Below, piece after piece: positions 32,513 through 50,304 of a DNA stretch of 64,000 nucleotides (positions are counted from its first letter, which is position 1; each line of letters begins with the position of its first letter). The stretch spans positions 124,001 through 188,000 of the forward strand of contig NZ_FXEH01000006.1 of assembly GCF_900176565.1 (NCBI RefSeq), read 5' to 3'. The stretch is from Thalassobacillus devorans. GTDB taxonomy: Bacteria; Bacillota; Bacilli; Bacillales; Halobacillaceae. The notes under the pieces were generated by a model, which worked only from the letters and a program-made list of their open reading frames with translations, did not search any database and had not been told where the DNA came from. The position numbers and the translations under genes were made by a program.

Positions 32513-33574
32513 ATGTTGAAGCGATTAAGCAGTATTCGATATACATTTATACGATCGCATTTATTTGGGCTGATACTGAATACCTTTGTGCTTCTGGCTG
32601 TCCTGCTCTCTGTCCATGTATGGTTCACACCGGAGTGGCTGTCAGCAGGAGCAATTCTTTTATTTATGGGTATTTATTTTCTGCTTGGTCTGTTCATGGC
32701 CTTTTACGCAGGCTTCCGCTCAAGCGGAGATTTAAAGGATCGTATCGATAGTCTGTCGACAGTGATTACCCATCTGGCAAGAGGGAACTTCAAGACGAAA
32801 GTTTTGTTCAGTGAAGAAGATGAAATTGCTAGAATTGCCAGTGAGTTAAATGAGCTGGGCGGTAAATTGCAGGAACAAAAGGACTCTTTAGTGCGTCTTG
32901 CGGATGAGAAAGCAGAGCTCGCTAAAAAAGCCCATAGTGCTGCGACCATGGAAGAACGCCAGCGCCTGGCCAGGGATTTGCATGATGCGGTAAGCCAGCA
33001 GTTATTCGCATTGACGATGATGTCCCAGGCGGCGGTAAGGATGTTCGATAAAAAACCAGATCAGGCAAAGCTGCAGCTGGAGGAAATTTCTGCGATGGCT
33101 TTACAGGCACAGACAGAAATGCGGGCATTATTGCTGCATCTCAGACCTGTCCATTTATCAGGGGAACCGTTGACCAAAGGAATCGAGCGCCTGGTTCAAG
33201 AATTGGAGCAGAAATGCCCCATCCATTTTCACGTACAAATGGAGGAAACACCTGGTCTCTCTCAGACAAAAGAGGAACATCTATTCCGGATTATCCAGGA
33301 GGCCTTATCCAATATACTGCGGCATTCCAATGCCACGGATGTCAATGTGAGCCTGAAAGAGAAAAACGAAGAGCTTTTTTTACATATCGGGGACAATGGA
33401 GTGGGGTTCAATATGAAGGAAAAAGAAACGATTGTTGCTTCCTATGGATTAAAAACAATGCGAGAAAGGACAGGAGAGATAGGGGGCAACTTTGTACTCC
33501 GCTCACGGGAAGGGGAAGGTACGCATATTGATATACGTGTACCGTTGCAGACAGTTAAGGGGGAGATAGGATGA
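32513..33574 (+). CDS. liaS: Sensor histidine kinase LiaS
   Basis: The 353-residue kinase has two transmembrane helices (about 17-37 and 45-66) with a very short extracellular loop, as in intramembrane-sensing kinases. A HAMP-like linker and the HisKA_3 motif ERQRLARDLHDAVSQQLFAL follow, the His being in RDLHDA. The ATPase part has QEALSNILRHSNAT (N-box) and GDNGVGF (G1). It overlaps liaR by 4 bp. It autophosphorylates and passes phosphate to LiaR. Confidence 0.94.
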   Translation: MLKRLSSIRYTFIRSHLFGLILNTFVLLAVLLSVHVWFTPEWLSAGAILLFMGIYFLLGLFMAFYAGFRSSGDLKDRIDSLSTVITHLARGNFKTKVLFSEEDEIARIASELNELGGKLQEQKDSLVRLADEKAELAKKAHSAATMEERQRLARDLHDAVSQQLFALTMMSQAAVRMFDKKPDQAKLQLEEISAMALQAQTEMRALLLHLRPVHLSGEPLTKGIERLVQELEQKCPIHFHVQMEETPGLSQTKEEHLFRIIQEALSNILRHSNATDVNVSLKEKNEELFLHIGDNGVGFNMKEKETIVASYGLKTMRERTGEIGGNFVLRSREGEGTHIDIRVPLQTVKGEIG

Positions 33575-34206
33575 TAAAGGTTGTGGTAGTTGATGATCAT
33601 GATGTTGTCCGAAAAGGAGTCATCGCTTATTTGAATACTGAGGATGAGCTCGACATCATCGGAGAAGCCTCCAGCGGTAATAAAGGTGCAAAGCTGGTTG
33701 CTGACTTGAAGCCGGACGTCGTGCTGATGGATTTGATCATGGAAGATGGCACCGGCATTGAAGCTACAAAACAGATCATGACCGAACACCCCGATGGTAA
33801 AGTGATTATTCTGACCAGCTATTATGATGATGAAAAAGTGTTCCCGGCGCTTGAGGCAGGAGCATTCAGTTACATGCTGAAAACATCATCAGCCGATGAA
33901 ATCGCCGATGCTATCAAGAAAGCCTATCGTGGTGAAAATACGATCGAACCAAAAGTGGCGGGGAAGATGATGAACCGCTTCCGATCATCCGACAAGAAAC
34001 CCCATGATGAATTGACACAGCGGGAGCTGGAAGTGTTGTTATGTATCGGGGAAGGGATGACCAATCAGGAAATCAGTGATTCTCTTTATATAGGCATCAA
34101 AACCGTGAAGACCCATGTCAGCAATATACTTAGTAAACTCGGTGTCCACGACCGGACACAGGCCGCGGTCTATGCCCATAAAAATCAATTGCTGAAAAAG
34201 ATATGA
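33571..34206 (+). CDS. liaR: Response regulator LiaR
   Basis: The 211-residue NarL/FixJ-type regulator has the receiver domain (DDHDVVRKG near 8-16, phosphoacceptor Asp in VVLMDLIMEDG near 50-60, Lys in MLKTSSADE near 106) and a LuxR helix-turn-helix (ELTQREVLL-like run TQRELEVLLCIGEGMTNQEI near 148-167). It is the third gene of liaFSR and is followed by a strong terminator. Confidence 0.95.
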   Translation: MIKVVVVDDHDVVRKGVIAYLNTEDELDIIGEASSGNKGAKLVADLKPDVVLMDLIMEDGTGIEATKQIMTEHPDGKVIILTSYYDDEKVFPALEAGAFSYMLKTSSADEIADAIKKAYRGENTIEPKVAGKMMNRFRSSDKKPHDELTQRELEVLLCIGEGMTNQEISDSLYIGIKTVKTHVSNILSKLGVHDRTQAAVYAHKNQLLKKI

Positions 34207-43989: not shown

Positions 43990-45456
43990 CTATTCCTTTA
44001 TTAGCTTAACGATTCGTTTCACATTAGCCGTGAAAATCGCCATCGCACCTTGCATGCGCATGCCTTCGAGACCCGAAGATGAGGCGATCTCATATCCGTG
44101 TCTATGCTTCAATTCGCTATTCTTCGCTTCAATCTTATATCTTTCCTTCGCCCTTTCTTTGAAGCTATCGCTGTTTTGAAAGGTGAGTTGATCCATATGT
44201 TCTTCTGATTTTAGGCTGACCGAATAACTTTTGGTTTTGGCCCCAGGTTTATAACATCCTTCCTGAAGGGGACACCGTTTACACTTTTCGACATCAAAAT
44301 AGTGGGTTTCTACCTGATTTTTTGCTTGACCCTTCTTGCCCTGACGGGCTTTTCGAAAAGCCATATGACCAGCCGGACAGACATACAAGCCAGCGTCTTT
44401 ATTAAATTCAAATTCTTCTTCTTTCTTACGATATCCATGAGAAACCGAAGGGTTCAACTTGGAAATGAGTTCGATCTCATTTTCTTTGGCATAGTTGATA
44501 TTTTCCTTTGCCGAATAAGCTGTATCTCCAATGACTTCCTCCACTTCTAACCCAGCTCCTCGGCTTTTCTTCACTAACGCAGGTAACTGCTTTCCGTCCG
44601 TTTTTTCTCCGGTAGTCACTGTGGCCGCCGTAATGATGCGTTCCTGAGACATGCCGAGATGCGTTTTATATCCAAAGAAAGCAGAGTCAGCTGATTTATG
44701 TCCCAAACGGGCATCAGGATCTTGAGATTCCTGCAATTCCAGTTGGTCATCTGTAATCGTCTCTTTCAGTAAGTTCAGAGGTTCTTTGATTTTGGGGATA
44801 AAGACGAGTTTTGGTTCTTTTTCAATGACTTCGACAAGACGTTCCGAATAGTCCAGCTCAGCTTCAAGCGTATCTTCGGTTGGTTTCTCAGGAAACTTTT
44901 TCTTCATCGATTCATCGACGGAATAAATCATTTTACGGACGTTCTTGGAACGGGTACGCAATACTTCTTGAGGGGATGTTTGATTGTATCGAGCTCTGGT
45001 GTGCGTGGCATCAAGGATGAGAGACTTCGATTGAATCACGCCTTTCTCAAGAGCGACCTCCACGGTTTTTCCAATCAGGAGATCTAAAAGGTTTGTGTCT
45101 TTAAGACGTTTACGACGAAAGTAAGCTAATAAGCTGGGATCAATGACCTCATCTTCTGGTGCCATTTCAAGGAAATATTTGAAGGACATGTCGACCTGAG
45201 CTCGTTCCACGAGATCCACATCAGACAACGTATAGATGGTTTTCAGGAGGAGGTATTTAAACATACGAATGGGATGAACAGCGTTCCGTCCATTGTCATG
45301 ACAGTATTTATCCTTCAGTTCGTCATAAACGAAGGAAAAATCTATAAGCTCATTGATTTCCCGAAGAAGGTGGTCCTTAGGGACCACCATATCGTAGAGT
45401 CCTTCGTACTGGCTTAAATTCATGGATAATTGACGGTCTAGCATCGAATCCCTCAC
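43990..45456 (-). CDS. IS1182-family transposase (intact, 488 aa)
   Basis: The 488-residue DDE transposase has the IS1182 layout: an N-terminal DUF772 domain (MLDRQLSMNLSQYEGLYDMV, FKYLLLKTIYTLSDVDLVER), then the RNase H fold with Asp in LILDATHTRARYNQ near 140, Asp in VIGDTAYSAKENI near 316, and Glu in the ERYKIEAKNSELKHRHGYEI run near 438-457. A zinc-like cysteine group (YVCPAGHM, KCKRCPLQEGCY) sits between. No frameshift or early stop, so it should be active. Confidence 0.93.
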   Translation of the reverse strand: MRDSMLDRQLSMNLSQYEGLYDMVVPKDHLLREINELIDFSFVYDELKDKYCHDNGRNAVHPIRMFKYLLLKTIYTLSDVDLVERAQVDMSFKYFLEMAPEDEVIDPSLLAYFRRKRLKDTNLLDLLIGKTVEVALEKGVIQSKSLILDATHTRARYNQTSPQEVLRTRSKNVRKMIYSVDESMKKKFPEKPTEDTLEAELDYSERLVEVIEKEPKLVFIPKIKEPLNLLKETITDDQLELQESQDPDARLGHKSADSAFFGYKTHLGMSQERIITAATVTTGEKTDGKQLPALVKKSRGAGLEVEEVIGDTAYSAKENINYAKENEIELISKLNPSVSHGYRKKEEEFEFNKDAGLYVCPAGHMAFRKARQGKKGQAKNQVETHYFDVEKCKRCPLQEGCYKPGAKTKSYSVSLKSEEHMDQLTFQNSDSFKERAKERYKIEAKNSELKHRHGYEIASSSGLEGMRMQGAMAIFTANVKRIVKLIKE

Positions 45457-48448: not shown

Positions 48449-48464
48449 TTGCGGTGTACCGCAA
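48449..48464. promoter_or_regulatory. Palindrome upstream of the candidate small RNA
   Basis: TTGCGGTGTACCGCAA is a 7-2-7 perfect dyad just upstream of the predicted small-RNA promoter, preceded by GCAAACGTTTTTGC. It has the look of an operator; the regulator is unknown. Confidence 0.45.
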
Positions 48465-48499
48465 CACTTTTTCGGTGAAGGAATAACGGGTATATATTA

Positions 48500-48656
48500 A
48501 AATAAAATCATGAGTTAGTTGTTAATCACCTCGGTGATTGACAACAGATTGGAAAAGCTTCCCAAGCTTTTTCATGGATTTAATTCCCTCACTCAAAAGT
48601 TTAACCAGTCGTCTCTTTGGCCAATATCCACCGTTTGGATATTGGTCCTTTTTTAT
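48500..48656 (+). ncRNA. Candidate small regulatory RNA with three hairpins and its own terminator
   Basis: No frame with a ribosome binding site exists here. Hairpin 1 (48518-48545) is a 13-bp stem with one G-T pair and a tight loop; hairpin 2 (48551-48573) pairs GGAAAAGCTT with AAGCTTTTTC; the third (48619-48647) is a 10- to 12-bp GCCAATATCCA stem followed by seven T. Between 2 and 3 is a single-stranded C-rich stretch AATTCCCTCACTC, the type used by Firmicute sRNAs to pair with ribosome binding sites. GGGTAT/TATATT at 48488-48498 can serve as -10. No plus-strand gene follows. Confidence 0.55.
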
Positions 48657-48669
48657 CTTCTTTTTACAT

Positions 48670-48890
48670 AGGCTTTGTTAAAGGAAAGCTCCCTTTTACT
48701 TAAGACTCAGTTTCAAGAGAAACTGTTTCCGTTATGGAATGGAGCGTTTGGAGTTCCGGGAAATCACTCGCTTTCCATGGGCGTACGAGCTCGCCAGTTC
48801 CCCCACAGGAAAGCGAGTAGTTTCCCAGCCGCCCCTGACACTTTTATAGTAAAGAACCCTAGATATCTCGAAATCAAGTCTTCGACTTTT
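48670..48890. repeat. Dispersed hairpin repeat, copy 3
   Basis: The left end (48671-48719) shares GGCTYTGTTAAA, AAGCTCCCTTT and ACTCAGTTTC in order with copy 1. The core hairpin has 19-bp arms at 48758-48776 and 48808-48826 (17 matches), read CGCTTTCC outward to inward, with CATGGGC at the turn as in copy 1 (CGTGGGC). The right end TCTCGAAAT matches copy 1 too. No gene. Confidence 0.7.
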
Positions 48891-48939
48891 CGGCATTTTA
48901 ATTGAATAACTCTCTTATGAGAACAACAACGTTTAATTG

Positions 48940-48975
48940 CATAAAAAAACTCCTCAATATGCCGTGAGGAGTTGT
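48940..48975 (-). terminator. Terminator after the 48982 gene
   Basis: AACTCCTCA (48949-48957) pairs with TGAGGAGTT (48965-48973); on the minus strand seven T follow. Confidence 0.9.
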
Positions 48976-48981
48976 TTGTGG

Positions 48982-49452
48982 TCATTTTTTTGAAGGTGGC
49001 TGGTAGGTGATGAGGAATTCTTCGTCCGTGATGTAAAAGTCGCGGTCAGGACGGTAAGGCAGCAGTTTTAACGTTTCGAGTTTGTAGTAGCTGACTCGTT
49101 TGTAGGGATCGTTTTCTATGATGGGGAGTTCCTTTGTTGCTTTCATATATTGATCGACGGCGCGCTGGACATGGTCGAGATCCAGCGCGAGCTGCTTCTC
49201 TTCTTCCGGAAAAATTTCATAGGTCTCCCGCGACATATAGTAGGTCTCTACCGGGATACCTTTCAGGTAAGGGGCGATTAAGTCGTAGTCGATCGTCAAG
49301 TCTTCTTTAATAATGACACTCAGTTCGACGCCTTTTGGAAGCTGGCTGGCATAGGCATTGACTGCCTTTCGAACTTCATGGATTGGAATGCTGCGCTGCT
49401 CATAAACTTCTGTCGGTTTTGGAGCAGGCTTCGATTTCTTTTTCTTCCACAT
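48982..49452 (-). CDS. Conserved hypothetical protein, probably DUF3939
   Basis: The 156-residue soluble protein begins MWKKKKSKPAPKPTEVYEQR, has RKAVNAYASQLPKGVELSVI near 28-47, YYMSRETYEIFPEEEKQLAL near 71-90 and ends with DRDFYITDEEFLITYQPPSK. From memory this pattern fits the DUF3939 family of Bacillaceae, to which no function is assigned. No catalytic motif or membrane segment is visible. It is divergent from the small gene at 49519 and lies where B. subtilis has yhfM; homology to YhfM is not claimed. Confidence 0.75.
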   Translation of the reverse strand: MWKKKKSKPAPKPTEVYEQRSIPIHEVRKAVNAYASQLPKGVELSVIIKEDLTIDYDLIAPYLKGIPVETYYMSRETYEIFPEEEKQLALDLDHVQRAVDQYMKATKELPIIENDPYKRVSYYKLETLKLLPYRPDRDFYITDEEFLITYQPPSKK

Positions 49453-49785: not shown

Positions 49786-50304
49786 ATGAGTCCAATTAAA
49801 AAAGATACCTTTGAGATTACAGCGCAGACCCTTGCTCTGGTGGCAACGACTACGCCTTACGGTAAGGTTTTGACAGAGGTAATTGAAACCGGAGCAAGAC
49901 ATGAGCTTCCCGTCCACCCAAGCCGGCTGGTTGATGAAGCATGCCGCTATTTCGCTTCCAGTCTGCCGGGCCGCTTAGCCGGTACGAAACAAGTTGCCGG
50001 GTTTACTCATAAACCTCCGATTGTAATTTCCCAGTCGATGGGCATCTACTTCTTTCCTACAATTTCTCCGAAACGAAAAGACTGCTCCTGGATTTCCCAC
50101 AGTCATATCCACTCTTTTAACAGCCTTGACGGCTACCAGACTACTATTGAATTCACCAATGGATCCTCCATCGTTGTGCCTGTTTCACCGGGCATGATTG
50201 CCAATCAGATCCAGCGTACCGCCCAGTTCCGTTTCCTTCTGGAAAACCGGATCAAGCATTCTTCTCTGTATACTGCGGAGCAGATCGCAGAGCCTTTTGC
50301 ATAA
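49786..50304 (+). CDS. comK: Competence transcription factor ComK
   Basis: The 172-residue protein matches ComK: YEITAQTLAL-type start, TKPPIVISQSMGIYFFPTIS near 83-102, CSWISHSHIHSFNSLDGYQT near 106-125, and a basic C-terminus RFLLENRIKHSS. ComK is the master activator of competence and DNA-uptake genes. AAAGGAAG precedes the ATG. The last 53 bp overlap, in the opposite direction, the 3' end of the next gene. A K-box pair could not be identified upstream. Confidence 0.93.
   Translation: MSPIKKDTFEITAQTLALVATTTPYGKVLTEVIETGARHELPVHPSRLVDEACRYFASSLPGRLAGTKQVAGFTHKPPIVISQSMGIYFFPTISPKRKDCSWISHSHIHSFNSLDGYQTTIEFTNGSSIVVPVSPGMIANQIQRTAQFRFLLENRIKHSSLYTAEQIAEPFA

Follow-up and report, generated by a model that had tools for sequence, protein, structure and literature searches.

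A conserved small-RNA gene with a ComA-type promoter and predicted pairing to the abrB leader in the Halobacillus family and Pontibacillus

In Bacillus subtilis, AbrB is placed in the decision network for sporulation and competence and is lowered by a trans-acting small RNA (sRNA), RnaC/S1022, which pairs with the abrB mRNA near its start codon (Mars et al. 2015, PMC4366234, available text). According to the same text, RnaC/S1022 is transcribed by SigD, with conservation seen within the B. subtilis/atrophaeus/amyloliquefaciens clade (19 genomes); its pairing is predicted from −10 to +19 and is strongest within the coding region, from +7 to +19. A 2021 review lists SR1, FsrA, RoxS, RosA and RnaC as the trans-acting B. 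subtilis sRNAs for which targets have been identified, and ComA is absent from the available main text of that review (PMC8464778). Deletion of FenSr3 lowers the abrB transcript, and the available part of that report has nothing on a ComA-driven promoter (PMC10194069); in the available part of PMC2784878, ComA occurs only in the title of a reference. No description of a ComA-driven sRNA, or of a circuit from ComA through an sRNA to abrB, was found in the literature searched, which covered few subscription papers. Qrr in Vibrio and RNAIII in Staphylococcus are cases where a signalling two-component system acts on a master regulator via an sRNA, and RoxS and FsrA have C-rich pairing regions.

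The RNA analysed here resembles RnaC/S1022 in being trans-encoded and complementary to the ribosome-binding region of abrB. It differs from the published description of RnaC/S1022 in its promoter, with a ComA site and TANAAT box here and transcription by SigD there; in its hosts, which are the Halobacillus family and Pontibacillus rather than the B. subtilis clade; and in the site of pairing, which lies at and upstream of the Shine-Dalgarno sequence instead of being strongest inside the coding region. It shares with RoxS and FsrA a C-rich single-stranded region and, by prediction, the inhibition of translation, whereas those two are controlled by ResD/Rex and Fur and have redox, TCA and iron targets (PMC8464778, available text). 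The circuit logic is like that of Qrr and RNAIII, but no relation was found (Qrr reaches 14.9 bits, where the gathering score is 50). On these comparisons we would class it as a base-pairing sRNA that is RnaC-like in its predicted target, lies outside any named family and differs in promoter, hosts and pairing site.

The gene was found in a window of 64,000 nucleotides, G000:C4:124001-188000, in which neighbouring genes are 95–99% identical to their counterparts in Thalassobacillus devorans CECT 7046. The predicted transcript of ∼145 nt is encoded on the plus strand at 48,510–48,655, starting 7 nt past the −10 element and ending in the terminator T-run. In the predicted fold, the 5′ arm of a basal helix (UGAGU, 48,511–48,515) is followed by a 12-bp hairpin 1 (48,518–48,545) and an 11-bp hairpin 2 (48,550–48,574). 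Next comes the C-rich pairing core AATTCCCTCACTCAAAAGTTTAACCAGTCGTCTC at 48,582–48,615, recognized from its conservation and from its complementarity to the abrB leader and Shine-Dalgarno sequence. The RNA ends in an intrinsic terminator, a 12-bp hairpin and T-run at 48,619–48,656, which is supported by folding, terminator prediction and covariation. All these features are on the plus strand.

The initial annotation had proposed an sRNA at 48,488–48,656 built from two stable hairpins, a C-rich stretch without pairing and a strong terminator. These elements are present, and the predicted folding energy of the 169-nt stretch is −51.4 kcal/mol (z = −5.49), a stability that none of 200 shuffles reached. 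The sRNA does lie inside the proposed extent, but its predicted start is at ∼48,510 and its control site (48,449–48,475) falls outside. The stretch described as unpaired, which begins AATTCCCTCACTC, is mostly open, except that five of its bases (ACUCA, 48,591–48,595) are the partner of UGAGU in the 5-bp basal helix. As part of the seed can sit in this helix, the predicted fold counts to that degree against the model of pairing with abrB.

No plus-strand gene was seen in the gap, the neighbours of which are the minus-strand sco and a minus-strand DUF3939 gene. The annotation could not match the RNA to RoxS, FsrA, SR1 or 6S, and a search of the whole 64-kb window against Rfam gave no matches at the gathering score. 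With E-values of up to 10 there were seven sub-threshold matches, every one at E = 1 or worse. The best near-match among bacterial sRNAs was Listeria rliE (RF01459), with 17.8 bits (E = 1) where the gathering score is 90, so the RNA is not a member of that family. A second copy was sought in the host's own 4.07-Mb genome and none was found, the 15 other matches being fragments at chance level. Predicted transcripts range from 136 to 221 nt across the loci (39 of 40 were measurable) and are variable in their 5′ part. A conserved small protein is not favoured, as the longest ATG open reading frame (ORF) in the predicted transcripts ranges from 3 to 62 codons (lengths alone were compared between loci). 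The stretch was thus confirmed as a free-standing small-RNA gene, with transcription itself predicted.

Homologues in related genomes, which the annotation had suggested seeking, were found in two families. A DNA search located the gene in all 37 genomes of the host's own family (Halobacillus, Thalassobacillus and Salimicrobium; the host genome included), while 24 other genomes of the order gave two weak matches, neither of which involved the core. A covariance model of core and terminator matched 27 of 397 genomes of the order: 17 from the Halobacillus family, nine from a second family that we call Pontibacillus-type from equal neighbour-gene identities in named Pontibacillus loci, and one doubtful genome. 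This last match, at E = 0.008, has the look of a hairpin arisen by chance and was left out of the counts. The exact core was found in 37 stretches among the genome_contigs, which hold one genome for each of 84,980 species, and these came from Halobacillus, Thalassobacillus, Salimicrobium and Pontibacillus only. No viral carriage was seen, with no matches to the exact core in viral_contigs.

The alignment comprised the 30 fetched loci of the 37 in the Halobacillus family. For the model and the covariation analysis 28 of these were used, omitting one locus identical to another (L009, the same as L001) and one that has no terminator stem (L033). In the latter, a Halobacillus-type locus, core and promoter are intact, so that the stem was either deleted or lost through faulty assembly. 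The core, TCCCTCACTCAAAAGT(T)TAACCAGTCGTCTC, comprises 30 nt and one optional T and is invariant in the 28 aligned sequences; a Salimicrobium-type locus outside this set (L059) has CCCCTC and TAATC in its core.

Compensatory changes, the evidence that the annotation had looked to in homologous loci, were found in the terminator and in the upstream hairpins. In the 28 sequences, 96.4% of the terminator cells stay paired. Both-side changes occur at 4 of 10 terminator pairs, compared to a shuffled mean of 2.0, with 32 of 500 shuffles reaching four. The number of cells with such changes (13, against 2.6 when shuffled) and the covariation score were each reached by none of 500 shuffles. Further pair types showed no excess (6 against 7.1 when shuffled). 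The consensus fold of ten Halobacillus-type RNAs has double changes in 8 of 58 pairs; five pairs in the counterpart of hairpin 2 are doubly changed, each of them in a single sequence. Among four Thalassobacillus-type RNAs there is a double change in 1 of 41 pairs, from A-U to G-C in hairpin 1. Both consensus folds have a counterpart of the basal helix, the pairs of which never vary.

The genomic place of the gene is also shared. Convergent with the sRNA lies the DUF3939 gene (48,982–49,452, minus strand; PF13075, E = 2.1e-49), and 1.1 kb downstream of the sRNA is comK, for the competence master regulator (49,786–50,304, plus strand; PF06338, E = 1.7e-51). Many loci are too short to contain all the neighbours. 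Within that limit, the DUF3939 gene is beside the sRNA in 30/31 loci of the Halobacillus family, 9/9 of the Pontibacillus-type family and 33/37 named loci, comK in 26/31, 7/9 and 28/37, respectively, and an acyl-CoA ligase gene on the other flank in 27/31, 1/9 and 30/37. This shared location suggests that the sRNA has been inherited vertically, and the proximity of comK fits a role in competence. The intergenic sequence between the sRNA and the DUF3939 gene, at 48,656–48,960, is a dispersed repeat that contains an inverted repeat; other fetched loci have copies or fragments of it that have diverged, including a comA locus (L161 of G004). Elsewhere in the window, a minus-strand ORF at 43,990–45,456 is, judged by eye, presumably an IS1182-type transposase.

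Upstream of the sRNA there is a site of the tripartite form that Griffith and Grossman reportedly described for ComA. On the plus strand, the inverted repeat RE1-RE2 (TTGCGG-TGTA-CCGCAA, 48,449–48,464) is an exact match to the published consensus, and the half-site RE3 (TTTCGG, 48,470–48,475) follows RE2 after a 5-nt spacer. The consensus is a TTGCGG inverted repeat with a 4-nt spacer, plus the half-site RE3 (PMC4797271, available text). The ComA promoters of B. subtilis include srfAA, rapA, rapC, rapF and lutP (PMC4797271, available text). The present site is like them in having TTGCGG-N4-CCGCAA with a downstream half-site, and unlike them in that the targets named in that text are protein genes and here the gene encodes an sRNA. 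It also differs in RE4, which is unrecognizable: the sequence 5 nt past RE3, GAATAA, bears by eye little resemblance to TTGCGG in the window. Some true ComA targets have an RE3 or an RE4 that departs from the consensus by more than 50% (PMC4797271, available text), so we did not take the unrecognizable RE4 as excluding a ComA promoter.

The geometry of this promoter is fixed. The pattern TTGCGG-N4-CCGCAA-N5-TTTCGG lies upstream of the sRNA in all 40 loci, with no mismatch in its 18 specified bases in 30 loci, one in eight and two in two, and the gap from the end of RE3 to the TANAAT box is 22 bp in every locus. Of 37 genomes, 19 have the exact tripartite site (19 of 23 from the Halobacillus family, none of 14 others), each of them a single time and in every case at the sRNA; the backwards control gave none. 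Although 2–12 nt were allowed, the spacer between RE2 and RE3 is 5 nt in all 19 exact sites. The four genomes of the family without an exact site are Salimicrobium-type, and the site there carries one or two mismatches. With up to three mismatches, the site was found in the host genome nowhere but at the sRNA promoter (once per strand), compared to two places in the control. Other genomes have further places at three mismatches, at about the control level; one (G018) has another place with two mismatches, equal to its sRNA site, and another (G285) has a repeated sequence at three.

The −10 element is TAAAAT at 48,498–48,503 (plus strand), conforming to TANAAT in 40 of 40 loci, and it replaces the −10-like GGGTATATATT of the initial annotation. 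A Sigma-B reading of GGGTAT was dismissed since relatives lose the GGG and keep TANAAT. No −35 element is recognizable, as expected for an activated promoter, and a sigma-70 scan gives no site here.

The ComA ortholog of the host genome (G000:C4:1727880-1728530) is located beside a ComP-like kinase gene and gerE. Among the 397 genomes of the order, those with a comA ortholog of at least 66% identity are precisely the 26 that give a strong sRNA match, the next best ortholog being 60% identical; the sRNA and the regulator therefore travel together. In the next-nearest ComA-bearing genomes, no sRNA was found by the covariance model. Leaving aside the type found in a ComX cluster, a ComA ortholog is present in 41 of 41 genomes of the Halobacillus family and is 44–49% identical to the cluster ComA of G008, a genome with a ComQ-ComX-ComP-ComA cluster. 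For its DNA-binding domain, B. subtilis ComA gives the only PDB matches at E-values up to 1e-8. No NCBIfam model names the regulator, the best scoring 96 bits against a cut-off of 250.

In the host genome and in G011, comA follows the gene of a large membrane kinase resembling ComP and directly precedes gerE. The ComP-ComA pair is situated between the sdh operon and gerE, with no ComX or ComQ beside it (L164, 4062–7418, in the host genome; L165 in G011). A search for ComX (PF05952) in 23 genomes of the Halobacillus family found it in G008 only, the host being among those without it. Two genomes outside this search, G035 and G417, may carry ComX, judging from ComA relatives 69 and 76% identical to that of G008. 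The label 'quorum' for the putative ComP-ComA signal would be carried over by analogy with B. subtilis. A LuxR-type regulator at 33,571–34,206 and its kinase were considered as an in-window ComA system and set aside, as they look by eye like a LiaSR/VraSR pair. In a further family (f37; L207 of G072 and L216 of G111), a ComA-like box with two mismatches lies just after comA and before an ORF of ∼60 codons, which is possibly a ComA-controlled small protein.

In 13 genomes, an initial scan for places where GAGTGAGGG closely precedes an ATG gave 75 matches, against 46 in the backwards control; eight of the 75 were the sRNA's own opposite strand. The matches were inspected in 66 fetched loci, and the abrB leader of G005 stood out, with AACTTTTGAGTGAGGG as a perfect 16-nt complement. 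The AbrB gene is present in all 48 genomes searched. Where the sRNA is present, the Shine-Dalgarno region of the abrB leaders reads (A)ACTTTTGA(T/G)TGAGGGGAG, in some cases in a looser form. In the 16 genomes without the sRNA, the abrB leaders are without the full motif, and one (G037) has TTTTTGAGGGGAG.

Predicted duplex energies between core and abrB, obtained with three core versions and not with the exact flanks of each genome, follow the same division. The mean is −30.3 kcal/mol in the Halobacillus family (n = 23, −36.5 to −25.6), −25.4 kcal/mol in the Pontibacillus-type family (n = 9, −28.0 to −20.2) and −15.7 kcal/mol in genomes without the sRNA (n = 16, −21.5 to −10.1); genomes within the two families are non-independent samples, and the counts and tests ignore kinship. 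The weakest duplex (G217, −20.2) lies within the range of genomes without the sRNA, which reaches down to −21.5. Each of 31 sRNA-bearing leaders (G285 is not among them) was equalled by at most two of 200 of its own shuffles, in a test that is not corrected for phylogeny. The host's own abrB ranks first in comparison with 54 other gene starts of the window, at −28.4 kcal/mol against −21.6 for the next. Of 246 gene starts of named relatives, chosen like those of the window by a simple script, 13 reach −20 and one reaches −25.3 kcal/mol. Against these gene starts, the duplexes of the Halobacillus family therefore stand out and the weakest Pontibacillus-type duplexes do not. For the full-length sRNA with the leader, the predicted ensemble gain is ∼18.6 kcal/mol over the separate molecules.

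Within the core, the CCCUCACUCAAAAGUU positions pair in at least 27 of the 32 duplexes, except for the one facing the T/G position (16 duplexes). The UCGUC region pairs in most of the 32, in some of them to bases farther upstream, and the GACGA or GGCGA that it often meets presumably corresponds to the Spo0A box of abrB, which it resembles. Scanning with a 16-mer at up to two mismatches recovered abrB in 12 of 17 genomes with the sRNA, the leaders of the other five missing the cut-off, and in none of seven without. Complementarity at the abrB leader follows the presence of the sRNA. The annotation, which had recognized neither the ComA site nor abrB as the target, had proposed target prediction with a CCCUC seed. 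Its suggestion of a UCCC-type stretch that occludes ribosome-binding sites gained support, in that the stretch is invariant and fits the abrB Shine-Dalgarno sequence, from which occlusion would follow.

Many Halobacillus- and Thalassobacillus-type leaders have one internal mismatch to the invariant core. The core is invariant beyond the needs of pairing with abrB, so further targets are likely, and pairing with abrB may be only part of the reason for the constraint. A perfect complement of the core, 23 nt long, lies shortly before a putative exported-protein ORF in one Thalassobacillus-type genome (L373, G003:C1:1132160-1132182), a possible species-specific extra target. Two Salimicrobium-type genomes (L375, L376) share a near match, AACTTTTGAATGAGGTGG, before an ArsR/CadC-like gene, which is possibly a lineage-specific target in genomes of this type.

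Taken as a whole, the evidence leads us to consider it probable, with considerable confidence, that an sRNA activated by ComP-ComA acts in trans to repress abrB translation and favours the transition-state programme. When ComP-ComA is active, phosphorylated ComA would bind the tripartite site and turn the promoter on, as the site and its fixed spacing suggest. An RNA of ∼145 nt, ending at its own terminator, would then be made. Its core would pair with the abrB leader, CCCUCACUCAAAAGUU covering the Shine-Dalgarno sequence together with the bases immediately before it; UCGUC, nearer the 3′ end of the core, could pair with GACGA-like leader bases. Ribosome entry would be blocked and AbrB would fall, an effect that we infer from the computed complementarity and distribution. 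The likely outcome would be an earlier transition-state programme, which may include competence via the neighbouring comK.

The most serious alternative accepts a real, ComA-driven sRNA and makes abrB one of many targets, with the core serving as a general anti-Shine-Dalgarno arm as in RoxS and FsrA. The invariance of the core while abrB leaders vary speaks for this, as do the Shine-Dalgarno scan count above its control, the perfect complement before another ORF in a Thalassobacillus-type genome and the shared near match before the ArsR-like gene. However, the 16-mer matches in the 17 sRNA genomes other than abrB and the sRNA itself are at the control level (31 against 28), and no other target recurs in leaders across both families among the 23 of these 31 that were inspected. 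We give this alternative a substantial chance, a little short of even. Long invariant unpaired stretches are also typical of protein-binding RNAs, and the core is such a stretch; it might then titrate a protein or bind the ribosome, the match to abrB being secondary. The complementarity to abrB tracks the presence of the sRNA and reaches upstream of the purine-rich Shine-Dalgarno sequence, which makes this explanation improbable.

The upstream site might instead be read by a LuxR-type regulator other than ComA. The host genome holds 10 matches to the GerE domain, the ComP-like kinase is without a ComX partner in 22 of the 23 genomes of the family searched, and the full-length regulator scores highest with VraR among solved structures, the ComA structures covering the DNA-binding domain alone. 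Against this, the sRNA co-occurs with the comA ortholog, and the site equals the published ComA consensus (PMC4797271, available text). The same pattern, with three mismatches and an exact inverted repeat, is also found before a gene in a Bacillus-type genome, where there were four matches against six in the control. We take the gene to be surfactin-synthetase-like. A regulator other than ComA thus seems unlikely to us, much as titration does. Nothing was found in favour of a chance cluster of hairpins or decaying intergenic sequence, with no gene; as promoter, core and terminator are all conserved in both families, this reading is contradicted and scarcely credible.

Returning to the favoured reading, ComA-driven repression of abrB by the sRNA, a bolder version can be proposed tentatively, as one we think rather more apt to be wrong than right. 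Here the mostly ComX-less ComP-ComA system would have been rewired so that nearly its whole direct output is one sRNA, which would silence AbrB post-transcriptionally, in parallel to Spo0A at the abrB promoter, and open competence via the adjacent comK. This would be a Gram-positive counterpart of the logic of Qrr and RNAIII.

The model gives concrete predictions that are testable in easily grown strains, and the one ComA box per genome provides a signature for studying the ComP-ComA system of these hosts. RnaC, driven by SigD and narrow in range, is the one sRNA that we found described as acting on AbrB. If the model is true, sRNA control over AbrB would seem to have been invented separately in the case described here, and two central decision nodes of the Bacilli would be connected at the RNA level by an sRNA against abrB that ComA drives throughout the family.
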